Virus record (IMG/VR): IMGVR_UViG_3300045049_000291
Span: 1 to 47,890 of that record
Reading direction: 5' to 3' (one strand)
Source of the DNA: a virus
DNA length: 47,890 nt
Below, one piece after another: positions 6,017 to 47,580 of this stretch; position 1 is the stretch's first letter, and every line of letters begins with the position of its first letter. The notes beneath the pieces were generated by a model that was not told the DNA's origin, ran no database searches, and saw only the letters and a list, made by a program, of their open reading frames with translations. The position numbers and the translations under genes were made by a program.

Positions 6017-6041
6017 TGGTGCCCGGGACCGGACTCGAACC
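6017..6041 (-). other. tRNA 3' fragment (probably tRNA-Leu): prophage attachment site
   Basis: Minus-strand bases 6041-6017 read as a TTCGA-type T-loop, then a CCGGT arm, then CCCGGGC, the discriminator A and CCA. This is the 3' end of a tRNA whose acceptor would start GCCCGGG, typical of tRNA-Leu. Upstream bases do not continue the T-stem properly (GATGG where about ACCGG is needed), so the tRNA is broken exactly here. The terminator follows on the host side and an excisionase-like gene on the other. This is the displaced 3' end and attachment core. The intact tRNA should be at the far prophage end, outside the window. Confidence 0.85.
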
Positions 6042-6079
6042 ATCAGTAAGATGCCGTGTTATAGCAAAGCGTGGGGAAT

Positions 6080-6298
6080 TTATGCGCTCTCCGTCTCCAG
6101 CAAGCGGTCTACCTGATCGATCGGTATCAAGCCGCAGCCATTCAGCCGCAGTTTTCCGGACCGTACCAGTTTGCTAACTGTATGACGGCTGATGCCAAGC
6201 ATCTCACCGGCCTGGATCCTGGTGACCTGAAGCGGCCTAGGGTGCTGCTCAGCATAGAGTTGGACGGCCTTGAGCGCGATTCTCAATTCATCTGTCAT
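6080..6298 (-). CDS. Excisionase-like HTH protein
   Basis: A 72-residue basic protein with an excisionase/MerR-type winged HTH (IQAGEMLGISRHTVSKLVRSG near residues 29-49, then a wing ending in the I-P-x-x-x-V-D motif). The start at 6298 is chosen over upstream codons because GGGGAG lies seven bases before it. It overlaps the end of the preceding gene by 11 bp, implying coupling. It is the last gene of the leftward operon and the closest gene to the attachment site, which is where a phage Xis would be expected. The integrase it would serve is not in the window. Confidence 0.7.
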   Translation of the reverse strand: MTDELRIALKAVQLYAEQHPRPLQVTRIQAGEMLGISRHTVSKLVRSGKLRLNGCGLIPIDQVDRLLETESA

Positions 6299-6950
6299 TT
6301 TGGGGCTCCCCATGTCCCGCATTGGTTGCGGCATCGATGCAGGCCTTTCCGGCCTCAGTGTTGAAATAGCAAACTGTCGGGAACTCGGCCGATTCGGCGC
6401 AGGTGCAGGTCTCGCCGCACCGCTCGGTTACGCGCCGCTCCTCGATAAGCCCGCAGTCAAGCGCGGCCTGCTGCAGGACGCCTCCATCGACATCGCCCGG
6501 CCATCCGTCGTTGCGGTGAGCCTCCAGAACGATGCCGGAGAAACGTATGACGCCTTCGCTCGCCGTGTCGATGGGAGGGTGGGCGTTGTTTATCTGTTCA
6601 GCGATCATCTTTACGCTTTCGTCGTAGCCACATCCAAACCAGGAATGCACGAGCACATCGTTGACGAACAGCCTAGGGCCAACTGGCGTTTCTTCGATGT
6701 GAGCTACCGGCCTTTGCTTCTTTGCTGCTGCGATGCGCGCTTCGAGCACCTTGACGCGCTCCAATGCCTCAGAGCACTGATCGAACAGTGTGATGTTTTC
6801 TAGCGCTTGCTGTTGGATGCGCGCGGCATGGGCTTCGATCAAGTTGGCGGATTCTTCCATGTCCGACGCGATGGCCGATGAGTAATCCTTCTCCACATCG
6901 CGCGCGTCTCGATGCAGCCTCTTGCAAAGCTCTTCGTGGTTCGTCGTCAT
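6288..6950 (-). CDS. Hypothetical phage protein with N-terminal coiled coil
   Basis: A 220-residue protein not recognised. Residues about 10-80 are strongly helical and charged (heptad-like pattern through ARIQQQALENITLFDQCSEA), suggesting a coiled coil. The C-terminal part is richer in Cys (CGETCTCAESAE) and beta-like. It starts MTTN, as does the gene at 10232, which also has a charged helical start; this may reflect modular N-termini in the operon. It overlaps the upstream gene by 4 bp and the excisionase-like gene by 11 bp. Confidence 0.65.
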   Translation of the reverse strand: MTTNHEELCKRLHRDARDVEKDYSSAIASDMEESANLIEAHAARIQQQALENITLFDQCSEALERVKVLEARIAAAKKQRPVAHIEETPVGPRLFVNDVLVHSWFGCGYDESVKMIAEQINNAHPPIDTASEGVIRFSGIVLEAHRNDGWPGDVDGGVLQQAALDCGLIEERRVTERCGETCTCAESAEFPTVCYFNTEAGKACIDAATNAGHGEPQNDR

Positions 6951-7741: not shown

Positions 7742-8934
7742 GATTTCCCCTCCGCTCTATCAAGGCGCTCGATTTCGGCGATGATCAGCGCGCCGGCTTT
7801 TTCGAGCATGCGACGCCGGTCCCCAGGTTTCCACCACGACGCGTCCCACGGCCAAATGCTGGGCATCCCGCCATGACTTGTGATGCTCTCACTGGCGTAG
7901 GATGCTGCGGCCATTGCAAGTTCGCCATTTACGTATCTATCGTCATGCTCCGGCGTCCATCCCTCGACGCTCACTTGCCGCGCACGCTCTGCCAGCACGT
8001 CTTTTGCTGCCTGCTTGATGATGGCGCCGGGGTACTTGACCGACCGAATGCACTCGCGCCGGACCTGCGCAACGATGTCGCAAAGCGATGCTTGCTTCGC
8101 CGCCCCTTCTTCGCCGTGAAAGGTGTAGCCCATTTGCTGAAGCGTCAGCACTGCGGCGTCACGCATATCCGAGGCGGGGAAGATGGTGTTATCGTCCGCC
8201 GCCGCATCCGTCTGGTCGGCGGCCATCGGGGTAGCAGTGTTGAGCGCTCGCACCGCTCGGGCGAATGCTAGCAAGCCCGGTGCGCCGCAGTGGTATTGTG
8301 TGCCGTTGCCCGATTTTGGGAAGCGCGTCGGCGTCTCGCTGAAATACCGCTCCCCTTCGTTCAATGCGAGGATTTCGGCGTCAGTGGGCTCCGCCTGCCC
8401 CGCGCTTGCAGTCATCGGGGCGGCGTTACGTAACCACGCGAGCGGACTGCCCGGCTCTGTGATGGCATCCACGGCACGCGCAGCATCTTCTGTCGCCCTT
8501 TCGTTGTCAGGCGCCCCGCCGAACGCCCATAAGGCCGTAATCAACAGGCTACGTGTCCACACCCATTCCGAGCGCTGCGCCGGCCCTGCGCTTGCAGCGA
8601 GCCCAGCAAGCGCAAGGTCAGCGACGTTCGCCAGCACCTCGGCGTGCTCCTCGATGCGCATCCACTCGACGCCAGCGCGAGACAACCTGCGTGCTTCGTC
8701 GCGAAGCTTATCGATCTCATCGGCAGTTGGCCTATGCATGACGCACCCAGGCCCGTCCGAGACATCGACAACGCTACCCGCGCTTGCAGCGAGACTTGCG
8801 CGGCCAGCTTGGAAGCCCCGCCAAGCCGCCTCTGTTTCGCAGTCGCAAAAATCGCTTACGCGCTCGTCGTCGAAAACTCCGGAAGCGAGACACGCCTCGA
8901 ACGCCTCGCGCTCGCTCATCGCTTTGTCAGTCAT
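7738..8934 (-). CDS. Conserved phage hypothetical protein with WPWD-SWWKP C-terminal motif
   Basis: A 398-residue protein. The last 90 residues (EGWTPEHDDRYVNGELAMAA, then WPWDASWWKPGDRRR and AGALIIAEIERLDR) match a motif widely found in phage proteins of unknown function. The rest looks modular: an N-terminal acidic part, then segments rich in AASAG linkers. The C-terminal motif module alone often occurs as a free protein, so this may be a composite. GGAGGCAGCA precedes the ATG, and the same leader precedes the paralog at 9307. It overlaps that gene by 8 bp. Confidence 0.7.
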   Translation of the reverse strand: MTDKAMSEREAFEACLASGVFDDERVSDFCDCETEAAWRGFQAGRASLAASAGSVVDVSDGPGCVMHRPTADEIDKLRDEARRLSRAGVEWMRIEEHAEVLANVADLALAGLAASAGPAQRSEWVWTRSLLITALWAFGGAPDNERATEDAARAVDAITEPGSPLAWLRNAAPMTASAGQAEPTDAEILALNEGERYFSETPTRFPKSGNGTQYHCGAPGLLAFARAVRALNTATPMAADQTDAAADDNTIFPASDMRDAAVLTLQQMGYTFHGEEGAAKQASLCDIVAQVRRECIRSVKYPGAIIKQAAKDVLAERARQVSVEGWTPEHDDRYVNGELAMAAASYASESITSHGGMPSIWPWDASWWKPGDRRRMLEKAGALIIAEIERLDRAEGKS

Positions 8935-9307
8935 TGCTGCCTCCTATCTTTATCCTGCGGACGGCTCTGGCGCGCAACTCGCTGTCCTGGTGATAGTTGT
9001 ACTGGATGCCATTGTTGAAGCGCTGGTACCACGCCCAGCCGGCGTATTCGGGGTCATCGTCCTGCTCGTTCGACCAGTAGGCGTACTGCTGAAACTGATC
9101 GCGATGGGCCGCCCAAAGCATGGCCTGCTCGATTCGATTGGGCAGATCGCCGCCGATGCTTTTCGCCCACGCCATCTGTGATTGCCAGTTGGCGTCGTCG
9201 TTGTCGCCGGGCAGCAAAATGACGTGATAGAAATCGCCGTTCTTGTCACCGATTGCGCCGACATAGACCTCGCCTTCGGCGAGCGGCGGGATTTGGAAAT
9301 TATTCAT
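8927..9307 (-). CDS. DUF1566-type DGR variable protein, copy A
   Basis: A 126-residue protein with the DUF1566 / C-type-lectin-like pattern: ILLPGDNDDANW, WAKSIGGDLPNRIEQAMLW, YWS, GWAW, then ELRARAVRR at the end. Such domains are common DGR targets, whose variable residues cluster on the ligand-binding face. Its last third contains a 48-nt variable segment (8981-9028). Outside that segment it is nearly identical to copy C (11040-11405). It sits alone in the operon, overlapping its neighbours by 8 bp on each side, about 2 kb from copies B and C. The constant segment after the variable region has drifted from that of B and C. Confidence 0.85.
   Translation of the reverse strand: MNNFQIPPLAEGEVYVGAIGDKNGDFYHVILLPGDNDDANWQSQMAWAKSIGGDLPNRIEQAMLWAAHRDQFQQYAYWSNEQDDDPEYAGWAWYQRFNNGIQYNYHQDSELRARAVRRIKIGGSND
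8981..9028 (-). repeat. DGR-like variable region of copy A
   Basis: Sixteen codons between the conserved GWAW and ELRARAVRR motifs. Eleven codons differ among copies A, B and C only at positions one and two, always keeping the same third base. The five others (CAG, TTC, GGC, CAG, CAG) are identical in all three. Several codons in this copy are still AAC or AAT, the unmutated state expected from an AAY-rich template. Confidence 0.85.
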
Positions 9308-10232
9308 TGCTGCCTCCGTTGAGAGTGGAGAGAAGGGCGCGCAATGCGTCGATGGTATGACGCGCTTCCACTCGCCGATAATTCCAAAGCCACGCTACGG
9401 CATCCACGATCGCTTTTCGGTGTTCCTCGCTCAACGCCGCTTTCTCTGGCGGCCATGCGCCTGTACCGTCGCATTCCGTGCAATCCGGGCCACTGTGCGC
9501 CATGCAGGATTTCGGATAGGCTTGCTGCTCCCCCTTCGGCTCGGCCGGCGCGGGGACGGCATGCTTGACGATTTCGACAACCATTTCGATGCAGTCGACC
9601 GGTAATCCGATTCCGTGTGCATCGCAGATCGACACTGCGCCGTCATAGTCGAGCGGCGCTACAGCCTGCGCAGCGGGGGCGTGATTACCGCGCGCTATGA
9701 GCGTGTCTATCGACGCCACAGCGGCGCGCTCAGCAGTCTCCCACCCACATCCTGTCGAGTTGTGGATTGCCTCGGCCACAGCGCCAATGTCGTCAGGATC
9801 GACCGGGCGCTCCACAGGGATCGCCCCTGCTTGCGGCGGCTGTGGGGCGCGAGGCAATTCGCGCGCGTATGGCCAGTGGCATTCCTTCGCGATCCGAAGC
9901 GCCGCCGCTACCTGTGAGGGCGTCAGGGGCTCATGTGCGCCCATGCCGAGCGCGAGCCGGATCGGCTGACCGACCGGGCTGCTTCCGCCTTGATGGTGGT
10001 ACAGCACCCAAAGCAACGCTGCTCTGGCGCTATCCGTGAACTCGGGCGACATATCCTCCGGCACCCGCACGCCAGCCGTGGCGACGTCTGTTTCCCCGCA
10101 GTGCGAGCGAACAGCCTCCTCGAGCAACAGCCCGACGTCGTGCCGCATCTTTCCATCGACAACGCACTCATGTGCGATACGTGACAGCTCGACGGCGAGG
10201 GTAGCGTCCATTTCATGCAGATTCGTAGTCAT
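9300..10232 (-). CDS. Hypothetical phage protein
   Basis: A 310-residue protein starting MTTNLHEMDATLAVELSRIAHECV, with GAGG before the ATG. It is not recognised. Several segments look like spliced modules common in Burkholderiales phage early proteins, separated by Pro/Ala linkers (RAPQPPQAGAIPVERPVDPD). A CMAHSGPDCTECDGTGAWPPEK stretch carries a CxxC pair that might bind a metal. It overlaps copy A of the variable protein by 8 bp, so that target is translated with it. It lies where a DGR reverse transcriptase might be expected, but shows no RT motif. Confidence 0.65.
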   Translation of the reverse strand: MTTNLHEMDATLAVELSRIAHECVVDGKMRHDVGLLLEEAVRSHCGETDVATAGVRVPEDMSPEFTDSARAALLWVLYHHQGGSSPVGQPIRLALGMGAHEPLTPSQVAAALRIAKECHWPYARELPRAPQPPQAGAIPVERPVDPDDIGAVAEAIHNSTGCGWETAERAAVASIDTLIARGNHAPAAQAVAPLDYDGAVSICDAHGIGLPVDCIEMVVEIVKHAVPAPAEPKGEQQAYPKSCMAHSGPDCTECDGTGAWPPEKAALSEEHRKAIVDAVAWLWNYRRVEARHTIDALRALLSTLNGGSNE

Positions 10233-10239
10233 GTGGTCC

Positions 10240-10311
10240 TCAGGCGAGGTCGTTAGGATCGATGGTGACGATTGCCGCGTACTTGCCAGGCGTCCCTTTG
10301 AATTCGCTCAT
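10240..10311 (-). CDS. Very short ORF (23 aa), possible fragment
   Basis: MSEFKGTPGKYAAIVTIDPN and three more residues, preceded by an AG-rich stretch (GAGAGAAAGAG). The MSEFKGTPG start is familiar from longer conserved phage proteins that continue with P-W. Here the frame closes after 23 codons. It may be the remaining end of such a gene after a deletion between the truncated Avd-like gene and the gene at 10232. Its coding status is uncertain. Confidence 0.35.
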   Translation of the reverse strand: MSEFKGTPGKYAAIVTIDPNDLA

Positions 10312-10320
10312 CTCTTTCTC

Positions 10321-10533
10321 TCAAAAAGCGGGGGCCGTACTGCGCCCCACCGAAATACCGAGCATCCGAGCGTTTGCGCGGAACACCAGGACCATGATCT
10401 CGATGCACTCCGCGCTGATTTTCTCGCCGATGCTGCGCTTGAAATCGCGAGGCATGTTCTTGACCAGGTCGGTGACGCTATCGAGTAGCGCGTATGCCGC
10501 TCGATAGATCGGAAGTTGGGTGTGCAGGGCCAC
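10321..10533 (-). pseudogene. avd: Truncated Avd-like four-helix-bundle protein (DGR accessory)
   Basis: A 70-residue ORF starting MALHTQLPIYRAAYALL, then LVKNMPRDFKRSIGEKI and ECIEIMVLVFRANA. This matches the first two helices of Avd/four-helix-bundle proteins that accompany DGR reverse transcriptases, including the FPRDFK-like turn and the IFRAN-like end of helix two. Full-length relatives are about 115-130 residues. Here the match stops at FRANA, followed by an unrelated 14-residue tail (RMLGISVGRSTAPAF) and stop. Helices three and four are missing. It lies 14 bp after variable copy B, the usual target-avd order. It is probably non-functional unless a short form is active. Confidence 0.72.
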
Positions 10534-10547
10534 GGTGCGTTAAATAA

Positions 10548-11009
10548 TCAAATTGCTGAAGGAATAAATCTGCGGACGGCCCGGGCGCGCAACTCGGCGT
10601 TCTGGAGAAGGCTGGTCTGGATGCCAAGGCCGAAGCCCTGGGACCACGCCCAGCCGGGCGATTGATGCTCTTCAGCGGACCAATAGCAGGCCGATTGGAA
10701 TTCGCTCTTCAGGTTGGCGAACAAGAGTGATTGCTCACGCCGAGAAGGCAGCTCGCCGCCCTTGTTGGCCGCCCATGCGAGCGCGTCCTTCCAGTTCAAA
10801 TCCTCGGCATCGCCGGGCAAAAGGATCAGGTAGTGGCTCAGCGTGCCGTCGTCGTTGAGGACCGCGCCGGCAAATCGTTCGCCGCCCGCGAAGGGGATTG
10901 TGATCGCGTCGATGTGGTACTCGGTCGTCTTCGGCTGCTTCTTGAATTCTTCGATCATTGCGGCGATGCGCGAATGCTCGGCCTCGATATGTTCAAGCGT
11001 GATCGTCAT
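10548..11009 (-). CDS. DUF1566-type DGR variable protein, copy B
   Basis: A 153-residue protein. The N-terminus (MTITLEHIEAEHSRIAAMI...) is an amphipathic helix absent from copies A and C. The DUF1566-like core follows: LILLPGDAEDLNWKDALAWA, GGELPSRREQSLLFA, YWS, GWAW and terminal ELRARAVRR. The N-terminal two thirds differs clearly from A and C, but the flanks of the variable window are identical, as expected if template sequence was copied into each gene. The window is 10596-10643. It is directly followed by the Avd-like remnant and preceded by copy C. Confidence 0.85.
   Translation of the reverse strand: MTITLEHIEAEHSRIAAMIEEFKKQPKTTEYHIDAITIPFAGGERFAGAVLNDDGTLSHYLILLPGDAEDLNWKDALAWAANKGGELPSRREQSLLFANLKSEFQSACYWSAEEHQSPGWAWSQGFGLGIQTSLLQNAELRARAVRRFIPSAI
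10569..10595 (-). other. IMH-like constant segment after variable region B
   Basis: This 27-bp GC-rich segment encodes ELRARAVRR and is identical to 11052-11078 in copy C. In DGRs a GC-rich initiation-of-mutagenic-homing element borders the 3' end of the variable region and marks where cDNA transfer starts. Copy A differs here at two codons. The IMH role is inferred from position and conservation. Confidence 0.5.
10596..10643 (-). repeat. DGR-like variable region of copy B
   Basis: Aligned without gaps to 8981-9028 and 11079-11126. Examples of aligned codons A/C/B are AAC/TGC/GGC, AAC/CGC/AGC, CAC/CGC/CTC and TAT/GAT/CTT: third base fixed, first two free. The encoded residues here are S, G, G, L, I, T, S, L, L, N, A at the variable positions. 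Confidence 0.85.
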
Positions 11010-11039
11010 TGCGAAACTCCGTTGAAAATGGGCAAATGA

Positions 11040-11405
11040 TTAAATCGGCAATCTGCGGACGGCCCGGGCGCGCAACTCGACGTCCTGGCGATCGCGGTAC
11101 TGGCAGCCATTGCAGAAGTACTGGCACCACGCCCAGCCGGAATAATCTGGATCGTCGTCGGGTGTGTTCGACCAATACGCGGCCTTCTGAAACTGATCGC
11201 GATGGTTCGCCCACAACATCGCCTGTTCGATCCGGTTTGGCAGATCGCCGCCGATGCTTTTCGCCCAAGCCATCTGTGCTTGCCAGTTGGCGTCGTCGTT
11301 GTCGCCGGACAGCAAAACGACGTGATAGAAGTCGCCGTTCTTGTCACCGATTGCGCCGACGTAGACCTCGCCTTCGGCGAGCGGTGGGAGTTGGATCTGT
11401 TGCAT
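11040..11405 (-). CDS. DUF1566-type DGR variable protein, copy C
   Basis: A 121-residue protein starting MQQIQLPPLAEGEVYVGAIG. The ATG at 11405 has GGAG five bases upstream and aligns with the start of copy A, so the longer frame to 11468 is not used. The core is as in copy A (VVLLSGDNDDANW, WAKSIGGDLPNRIEQAMLW, YWS, GWAW, ELRARAVRR). The two genes are almost identical up to the YWS region, where scattered mostly silent changes occur. Then the 48-nt variable window differs at eight of eleven codons. It is the first of the C-B-avd series. Confidence 0.85.
   Translation of the reverse strand: MQQIQLPPLAEGEVYVGAIGDKNGDFYHVVLLSGDNDDANWQAQMAWAKSIGGDLPNRIEQAMLWANHRDQFQKAAYWSNTPDDDPDYSGWAWCQYFCNGCQYRDRQDVELRARAVRRLPI
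11079..11126 (-). repeat. DGR-like variable region of copy C
   Basis: Across the three copies, 19 of the 22 first/second positions in the eleven variable codons vary, and none of the eleven third positions does. An A is present in at least one copy at 15 of those 19 columns, as expected for mutagenesis of template adenines. This copy encodes three Cys residues in the window (from TGC codons). Confidence 0.85.
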
Positions 11406-11859: not shown

Positions 11860-12921
11860 TTAGACGATGAGCGGCGAGATCACGCCGCGCCAGTTGCCGT
11901 TTTGAATCAGGAATGCCCGCGGTTTCTCGGCGTCCCAGTAGATCGTCACTTCCTTTTCTGGCGCATGCTGCAGGACCTTCGATAGTTGCGATCCGCTGAA
12001 CGAGAAATTGAACGACGTTTCGTCACTCCCGAGCTTTGCGTCAAGCGCCGATTCAGCTTTCGATTCGACGTTGTCAATTTCGACGGTGCATTCCGTCCCC
12101 TCGGTGATGAACCGAACGGTGCCGACCTTATCGCCGTAGTGGCGGTGCATCGACACGGCTTCGCGGAGGGCGTCTCCATCGAAGACGATAGAGTTCTTGG
12201 GCTCGGGCGACAGGCGGCGCCAGTCGATCTTTGGTGCTGAGACGGGGCAGACGATGAGCTCGACGTTATTGCCGCGCGCCTTCAAATGCGACGACGTAAT
12301 CTCGATGTGATCGGGATCGATGGCGGCAATCAGCTCGCACGCTGAAACGGACAGCATCAGGGAGAATGGTGCCGCCGCGAGAGGGACCTGTGCTGCCGCC
12401 ATGACCTTCGAGTCTGTTGCGTTCGCCGAAAAGACTTCTCCGTCGGACTCGAGCCAAACGCCCTGGCAATACGGACGGATGTCTTTCGGGGCAGCCGCGA
12501 ACGAAACGGATGAGATCAAGTCGGGTAGGCCGACGACGTCGACGTCGGCAATGACGGCTCCCTCAGATTTAATCAGCGGGAACTCGCTTCCGGGGATCGA
12601 CGGGACGGTCACGGTGTGGGACGACGTCGAAAACTTCACCCGACCATTCTTCTGCGGCGAGAGGACGATTTCGTCGTCGGCCACCGCAACGAGAGGAACA
12701 AGGCGGTCGGCCTCGACGCACACGTCGATCGGGGCGCTTGCGCCGTCGATCTGTGCGCGATACGTCGCCTGGCCATCGATTGCGCCCGCCGTCATCTCGA
12801 AGGAAACACCTGACACACGGATGCGCACCGATTGGAATGCCTTAAGAGGCGAGCGCCGATCGACTGCGGGGCCGATCTTCTTGAGCGCGTCTTTCAAAAT
12901 GGGAGTTGGAATCGTGATCAT
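11860..12921 (-). CDS. DNA polymerase III beta-like sliding clamp (DnaN homolog), phage-encoded
   Basis: A 353-residue protein with the three-domain outline of bacterial beta clamps (usual length 365-380): an N-terminal domain starting MITIPTPILKDALKKIG, a central domain with SVSFAAAPKDIRPYCQGVWLE (compare the family's RPVLNGVLLE-type motif), and a C-terminal domain closing FLIQNGNWRGVISPLIV. A clamp encircles DNA and gives processivity to the replicative polymerase. It also binds partners through clamp-binding motifs. Here the C-terminal end differs from the host-type VMPMRL, so the partner-binding cleft may be altered. It is the largest clearly enzymatic-complex gene in the leftward arm. 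Confidence 0.85.
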   Translation of the reverse strand: MITIPTPILKDALKKIGPAVDRRSPLKAFQSVRIRVSGVSFEMTAGAIDGQATYRAQIDGASAPIDVCVEADRLVPLVAVADDEIVLSPQKNGRVKFSTSSHTVTVPSIPGSEFPLIKSEGAVIADVDVVGLPDLISSVSFAAAPKDIRPYCQGVWLESDGEVFSANATDSKVMAAAQVPLAAAPFSLMLSVSACELIAAIDPDHIEITSSHLKARGNNVELIVCPVSAPKIDWRRLSPEPKNSIVFDGDALREAVSMHRHYGDKVGTVRFITEGTECTVEIDNVESKAESALDAKLGSDETSFNFSFSGSQLSKVLQHAPEKEVTIYWDAEKPRAFLIQNGNWRGVISPLIV

Positions 12922-46167: not shown

Positions 46168-47580
46168 ATGTTCCAAACCGATCAGGCCACGGCCGCGACC
46201 AGTCTCCCGACGCCCGCGGCAGCGGGCACGCCGGGTTATTTCACGAACGGCAACCCGAGCACCGGCGTAGCTGCGACGATCCTCGACGCGGACTTCATGA
46301 ACATGGTCATGATGGAGCTGGCGAACGTTGTGACGGGCGCCGGCATTGCGCTCAGCAAGACGACGTACAACCAGGTCCTGTCGGCGATCAAGCGGATCGG
46401 GCAAAACACCGCTGTCATCGCTGACGCGGGCGTCGCGAACGCCTATGCGGCGGCGAACGCGACGCCGCTCGTGGCCGGGACGTGGGTGGACGGCGTAGTG
46501 CAGGCCGTGAAGATCGCGAACACGAACACGGGCGCATCGACGTACGCGCCGGACGGCCTGACGGCGATCCCGATCTATGGCCTTGGGCTCCAGGCGCTCC
46601 AGGGCGGCGAGCTGTTCGCTGGCGGCACCGCGATCCTTATGCATGCGACGATCGCTGGCGTGAACAGCGGCAATCCGATCTGCGTTCTGATGGAGTGCGC
46701 GGGCGGCGCGCAACAGGTCACTGCCGCGACCGCATCAAAGCACGCCCCGCAGGCCGGCCAAGTGCAGCGGAATGCGTTCAACTACGCGAGTTCCGCAGGC
46801 GGCACGGCGAATGCCCTGACGGCCACGTTGACGCCGGCTCCTGCGAGCTATACCGACGACCTGACGGTCGTCGTTCGTGTCGCGAGCGCCAACACCGGCG
46901 CAACGACGCTCAATGTGAACGGCCTCGGCGCGACGGCCGTCGTTGGCGCCGGGCATCAGCCGTTGCAAGGCGGCGAGCTCGCGGCGAACGGCTTCGCGTG
47001 CTTCGCCTACTCGCAGGCCCTCGCCTCGTTCATCTTGCTGTGGACGACAGGCGGTGCGGAGCCGGTCGCGCCGGCAACGCAAAGCCAGCATGCAGTGCAG
47101 TTCGCTCAACTGGGGAATCGCGCGGGGGAGGTGTGCTTTTTCGCGACCTCTTCACCGCCGATAGGATTCCTCGCGGCGGATGGGTCAGCCGTCTCGCGGA
47201 CGACCTACGCGACGTTGTACTCGGCAATCGGGACGACGTTCGGCGCAGGGGACGGCTCCACGACGTTCAACCTTCCGGATCTTCGAGGCCGCTTTCCACG
47301 GGGTTACGACAATGGTGCCGGCGTTGACCCGGGACGTGCATTTGGCAGCGTGCAGGCCGACAGCTTCGCCAGCCACAACCACGGCGTCAACGACCCAACT
47401 CACGCTCACTCGTCGTCTGCGGCGGCATCTGGCAATCAGATTCTTGCTGCTGGTTCCAACGGCGCGGCCATCAATGGTAGCTCCACCGGCTATGCCTCAA
47501 CCGGCATCACGATCCAAAGCACGGGCGGCACCGAAACGCGTCCGAAGAACGTTGCCCTTCTCGCATGCATTAAGTATTAA
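46168..47580 (+). CDS. Tail fibre protein with tail-collar domain
   Basis: A 470-residue protein. The N-terminal part is variable and Ala/Gly-rich, for baseplate attachment. Two similar stretches occur (WVDGVVQAVKIANTNTGAST... and LTVVVRVASANTGATTLNVN..., each ending QALQGGELFA or QPLQGGELAA). The C-terminal collar domain starts about residue 318: GEVCFFATSSPPIGFLAADG, FGAGDGSTTFNLPDLRGRFP, RGYDNGAGVDPGR, and ends TETRPKNVALLACIKY. The His-rich HNHGVNDPTHAH is typical. It has no DUF1566-type variable region. Confidence 0.88.
   Translation: MFQTDQATAATSLPTPAAAGTPGYFTNGNPSTGVAATILDADFMNMVMMELANVVTGAGIALSKTTYNQVLSAIKRIGQNTAVIADAGVANAYAAANATPLVAGTWVDGVVQAVKIANTNTGASTYAPDGLTAIPIYGLGLQALQGGELFAGGTAILMHATIAGVNSGNPICVLMECAGGAQQVTAATASKHAPQAGQVQRNAFNYASSAGGTANALTATLTPAPASYTDDLTVVVRVASANTGATTLNVNGLGATAVVGAGHQPLQGGELAANGFACFAYSQALASFILLWTTGGAEPVAPATQSQHAVQFAQLGNRAGEVCFFATSSPPIGFLAADGSAVSRTTYATLYSAIGTTFGAGDGSTTFNLPDLRGRFPRGYDNGAGVDPGRAFGSVQADSFASHNHGVNDPTHAHSSSAAASGNQILAAGSNGAAINGSSTGYASTGITIQSTGGTETRPKNVALLACIKY

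Follow-up and report, generated by a model that had tools for sequence, protein, structure and literature searches.

Our results point to three small lectin-fold genes, A, B and C, as targets of a decayed and probably frozen diversity-generating retroelement (DGR) of the Magia type, whose mutating half has been lost (probability about 0.85). Variation in a 48-nt segment of these genes is confined to template adenines, relatives carry a complete and active cassette, and the record itself holds a truncated Avd with neither template nor reverse transcriptase (RT). DGRs as a class are well established, and Burkholderia phage Magia already has this element annotated in complete form; what is new is that activity is seen in nature, that a fossil element survives whose template can be inferred, and that the RT is lost recurrently with HNH genes in its place.

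The window is the whole source record, a viral contig of 47,890 bp. Host-type genes occupy bases 1 to ~6,000, with Burkholderia matches of 75–81% in a comparison of the flanking DNA. At the left prophage end (6017–6334), the 3' fragment of a tRNA is accompanied by a small excisionase-like ORF with a helix-turn-helix. A tRNA search of the 47,890-bp record returned no complete tRNA, and no integrase was noticed in the record's ORF list; it may sit past the right end. The prophage appears to extend to the right end of the record, its other end lying outside. Searches of the viral and genome collections found no second copy of this prophage, nor a near copy with an intact cassette, structural genes matching Burkholderiaceae genomes at ≤80%. 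The three targets are part of the leftward early region, and the tail genes, including the tape measure, are distant from them on the other strand.

6017–6041, minus strand: 3' end of a tRNA, which probably marks the left attachment site (sequence read by eye)
11860–12921: DNA polymerase processivity factor homolog, near the target genes
46168–47580, opposite strand from the targets and far off: candidate tail fibre

The target genes and their variable repeats (VRs) are as follows.

8927–9307, minus strand: gene A, 126-aa lectin-fold DGR target, paralog of C with 80% identity (ORF, alignment)
8981–9028, minus strand: VR of gene A (alignment of the copies and the relatives' template)
10548–11009, minus strand: gene B, 153-aa lectin-fold DGR target, ortholog of Magia gp46 with 68% identity (tblastn)
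10596–10643, minus strand: VR of gene B (alignment of the copies and the relatives' template)
11040–11405, minus strand: gene C, 121-aa lectin-fold DGR target, Lcl_C/DUF1566-like (ORF, alignment with 41 relatives, AlphaFold model)
11079–11126, minus strand: VR of gene C (alignment of the copies and the relatives' template)

The encoded VR peptides are YQRFNNGIQYNYHQDS in A, CQYFCNGCQYRDRQDV in C and SQGFGLGIQTSLLQNA in B, each followed by ELRARAVRR. The first-pass annotation had described this segment as a gap-free 48-nt alignment in which 11 of 16 codons differ, and its description was reproduced exact to the base: variation affects 19 of the 22 first and second positions of the 11 codons and spares all their third bases as well as the remaining five codons, and on recounting, 15 of the 19 variable columns have A in at least one copy. 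Outside the segment A and C diverge normally, as had also been stated: across 93 codons, first positions differ 13 times, second positions 4 times and third positions 21 times, giving 16 silent and 14 replacement codons. Inside it, the corresponding counts are 6, 7 and 0 over 16 codons; the chance that all 13 of these A–C changes would miss third positions is ~2.5e-4.

Relatives were gathered by alignment search, which yielded 76 viral and 29 genomic loci; a single protein A query of the viral collection had found none. Extended blastn matches were obtained to Burkholderia phage Magia and two other phages. In ~100 loci related to Magia, the same target genes sit beside Avd, an adenine-rich template repeat and an RT, and an RT domain was detected in 64 of the 75 viral records tested. 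The AAY-rich template and DGR-type RT predicted from the three genes were thus both found in relatives. In three Burkholderia and Janthinobacterium genomes, the best DGR RT matches (G080:C25:69485-70759, G082:C31:209383-210654 and G083:C20:111729-113003) contain one in-frame TGA each; these RTs are possibly broken, or the match overran the stop.

The order on the minus strand of Magia (NC_070954) is lectin gp47, gp46, Avd, template and RT, and another lectin, gp57, lies 6 kb upstream. The publication on Magia annotates a potential DGR and lists genes 47 and 57 as its possible targets (PMC7883833). The prophage studied here shares with Magia the orthologous targets (gp46/gp47/gp57), VRs that agree in their fixed codons and 3' flank, and an Avd N-terminus that is 93% identical. 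However, Magia has a full Avd, a template and an RT, whereas this prophage retains the targets and 54 Avd residues.

Activity of this family was visible in two phage records of 47,902 bp each, OK094664 (vB_Sb_QDWS) and OP650936 (zrk29-1), which have the same target families and template as the prophage; their DGR, in contrast, is complete and active, and they differ from each other almost only in two VRs. Among their 31 differing sites, 26 lie in these two VRs (14 + 12), every one at a template adenine; one further templated change lies 4 nt upstream of the second VR and four are scattered elsewhere, while the third VR and the template are identical. Differences between related genomes therefore fall exactly where the first-pass annotation had predicted them. 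This is direct evidence that a DGR of the Magia-type family acts on small lectin genes, the remote one included, and it documents natural DGR activity on small non-tail lectins of temperate phages. The two records (L124 and L125) are assigned to Shewanella baltica and to a Tenericutes bacterium, differ at only 31 sites, and both resemble DGR loci of Burkholderia phages. At least one of these host labels is doubtful.

The template of the relatives reads TAC CAG AAC TTC AAC AAT GGC AAC CAG AAC AAC AAC CAC CAG AAC AAC. All 19 variable columns of A, B and C coincide with its 23 adenines (hypergeometric p = 7.7e-10), so that each target has, in its C-terminal part, a repeat that varies at template adenines. 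The positions that do not vary are equally informative: the invariant first bases of codons 1 and 13 correspond to a T and a C in the template, and the third invariant first or second position, the A of codon 15, is an unmutated template adenine. A template repeat occurs in 107 of the surveyed loci. Across 186 distinct template/VR pairs, 2,200 of 4,284 adenines (51%) were changed, against 0.14–1.2% of the other bases (C 4/2,818, G 6/1,017, T 10/809).

In the prophage itself, the cassette is broken directly behind gene B.

10321–10533, minus strand: truncated avd, its first 54 residues (10372–10533) 93% identical to Magia Avd
9300–10370, minus strand: replacement segment at the place of the relatives' avd 3' part, template and RT (homology break)
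9300–10232, minus strand: 310-aa ORF in the replacement segment, without a Pfam match and with partial matches in phages only

The avd remnant reads VALHTQLPIYRAAYALLDSVTDLVKNMPRDFKRSIGEKISAECIEIMVLVFRAN and continues in an unrelated tail to the stop at 10321. Nucleotide homology to the relatives that retain avd ends at 10371–10373 in nearly all of them. Nothing in the DGR relatives corresponds to the kilobase with the 310-aa ORF, and gene A sits beyond it. No RVT_1 domain match was obtained in the record, which ends before the right end of the prophage, and no template repeat was found in its 47,890 bp. The DGR signature proposed by the first-pass annotation was therefore right in kind, but it does not belong to a working element: Avd is truncated, and a complete DGR is not supported because RT and template were sought in the record and not found. 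These findings support the view that the prophage carries a DGR remnant, the signature of past DGR action, and that its three genes function, or once functioned, as DGR targets. The simplest reading of the sequence is that a deletion or replacement removed the 3' part of avd, the template and the RT.

The VRs retain a trace of the template that wrote them. The third base of codon 12 is T in all three, compared with C in 284 of 292 surveyed VRs and in every template. The shared T argues that the VRs of A, B and C were written from one template, now lost, with AAT at this codon; a single such template is the most likely source of all three. The target genes alone can thus reveal much of a DGR, down to one base of a lost template. 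The 3' flanks of the VRs were compared with those of relatives.

8953–8980, minus strand: 3' flank of VR A (IMH position), drifted, GCCAGAGCC versus GCCCGGGCC in B and C
10568–10595, minus strand: 3' flank of VR B (IMH position; flank comparison with relatives)
11051–11078, minus strand: 3' flank of VR C (IMH position; flank comparison with relatives)

This shared 28-nt flank, which ends sharply in relatives, is a candidate IMH that was kept in B and C and has drifted in A. In 216 active pairs, the 25 bases 3' of the VR almost never differ from the template; gene A has two differing sites within this 25-base flank, and B and C are identical there.

The adenine-misreading mechanism of DGR reverse transcriptases has been established for phage BPP-1. 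In the prophage, the pattern of variation suggests that an error-prone RT with Avd would have copied the template RNA while misreading its adenines. The cDNA would then have replaced the 48-base C-terminal stretch of each lectin-fold gene, randomising eleven codons. A deletion or replacement would subsequently have taken the template and the RT together with the second half of avd, leaving the three last-made variants as intact, probably frozen genes. We infer this order of events, the freezing, and the binding of ligands inside the cell.

Continued diversification of the targets in trans, by the DGR of another prophage or one in the missing right end, is the alternative that fares best, and we consider it unlikely. 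It would fit VRs that are intact and homogeneous at non-adenine positions, and in relatives a single template serves several distant targets; the host genome and the right end of the prophage both lie outside the record. Against it, neither the viral collection nor 399 Burkholderiaceae genomes yielded a template with T at codon 12, and RT, template and Avd sit together in relatives. The drift of the gene A flank likewise favours a loss of function rather than unseen activity in trans. No drift is seen at third positions within the VRs, either in A, B and C or in other RT-less loci, and when RT-less loci were tested for accelerated decay of third positions, no difference emerged. It follows that the loss is recent or that the genes are still being overwritten from elsewhere; judged from these sequences, the cassette was probably lost recently.

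An assembly artefact, by collapse of repeats and misjoining of two contigs, is a very improbable reason for the absence of RT and template. Variable and template repeats can mislead short-read assembly, and the record is one contig, but the break lies inside unique Avd sequence, away from these repeats, and the junction leads into ~1 kb of new phage-like coding sequence; other records also show RT loss. Ordinary divergence without any DGR, under strong positive selection on ligand-facing residues, could concentrate replacement changes at contact residues, but we give it almost no credence in view of the absence of third-position changes in the segment (0, against 21 in the A–C gene body), the way in which the changes coincide exactly with template adenines and spare the T and C positions, and the 26 adenine-position changes between two otherwise near-identical phages; as the first-pass annotation had argued, the pattern is not ordinary divergence, a combination of divergence and selection being refuted for the family by the phage pair and the 186 template/VR pairs.

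Loss of the mutating half, as we propose for this prophage, recurs among its relatives. When the count is limited to loci whose visible sequence extends 2.5 kb or more beyond the last target, a full RT is missing in ~12, this prophage included, although divergence could hide an RT in some distant ones. Seven RT-less relatives have an HNH endonuclease-like ORF at the vacated place of Avd, template and RT.

L070, 10873–11322: HNH-like ORF, HNH_3 above the curated Pfam cut-off, RT stub after it
L082, 10866–11321: HNH-like ORF, HNH_3 above the curated Pfam cut-off, RT stub after it
L096, 11230–11730: HNH-like ORF, HNH_3 above the curated Pfam cut-off, RT stub after it
L029, 10958–11425: HNH-like ORF, HNH_3 above the curated Pfam cut-off, RT stub after it
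L094, 10874–11299: HNH-like ORF without Pfam support
L112, 11334–11813: HNH-like ORF, by blastp similarity to the ORFs of L070, L082, L096 and L029
L044, 214–678: HNH-like ORF, by blastp similarity to the same four ORFs

The stub behind the first four consists of the final 50–95 residues of the RT. Among the 103 loci that have a full RT, not one has an HNH ORF at this place; four carry similar HNH genes elsewhere in the locus. Like this prophage, the seven relatives have kept VR-bearing targets and lost the RT; unlike them, it has no HNH gene at the cassette place. One way of losing the mutating half may thus be through homing endonucleases. We put forward only tentatively, as something we would not bet on, that RT-less lectin arrays are a regular alternative state of this DGR family and not occasional debris, in which Avd, template and RT are repeatedly swapped out while the diversified lectins stay, and variants are locked, or spread by endonuclease-driven gene conversion. 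If so, HNH homing endonucleases (in the seven relatives) or other DNA (here) would swap in, and the chosen lectins would not be re-randomised. The repeated loss raises the question of why these phages stop diversifying yet keep the diversified proteins.

The AlphaFold model of protein C (pLDDT 94.6) has the Legionella Lcl C-terminal domain (Lcl_C, formerly DUF1566; PDB 8q4e) as its best structural match, with a TM score of 0.73, followed by C-type lectins; model and matches together identify a target with a C-type lectin fold. Sequence identity to the Lcl domain is only 18%, and Pfam Lcl_C/DUF1566 (PF07603) scores of 14.8–20.4 bits fall below the curated threshold of 34.9. The DUF1566 label of the first-pass annotation thus has sub-threshold Pfam scores behind it and is backed by the predicted fold. 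Protein C is a single domain with predicted strands from residue 14, and its N-terminus, judged by eye, is unlike a signal peptide. The targets are most likely intracellular ligand binders, acting in the infected cell or lysogen through eleven randomised residues, and the position and size of their genes are consistent with the earlier view that they are not tail fibres.

The target of the BPP-1 DGR, Mtd, is a tail receptor-binding protein. Bordetella phage BPP-1 resembles the system described here in that mutagenesis is specific for adenines and strikes a C-terminal VR of a lectin-fold target, with Avd and an AAC-rich template also present (in part from PMC12875486), but its target belongs to the tail, whereas those of the prophage are small single-domain proteins encoded in the early region.

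Template adenines did not change uniformly in the survey. Those in the CAG codons 2, 9 and 14 were changed in 5 of 488 cases, compared with ~30–80% for AAC, CAC and TAC adenines; a first pass of this tally selected VRs partly on those bases, and a second pass, at the protein level, gave the same result. Purifying selection on Gln is a possible cause, as is faithful copying of A before G, and an altered error profile in NAG contexts is described for BPP-1 (PMC12875486). Strict context shielding of adenines is disfavoured because 4 of 8 AGC template adenines were changed in the first-pass tally. Finally, three loci that keep an intact Avd and RT have templates short of adenines and VR-like in their 3' half (L090:11404-11451, L052:5563-5610 and L053:5811-5858), and these templates look as if overwritten by a VR.
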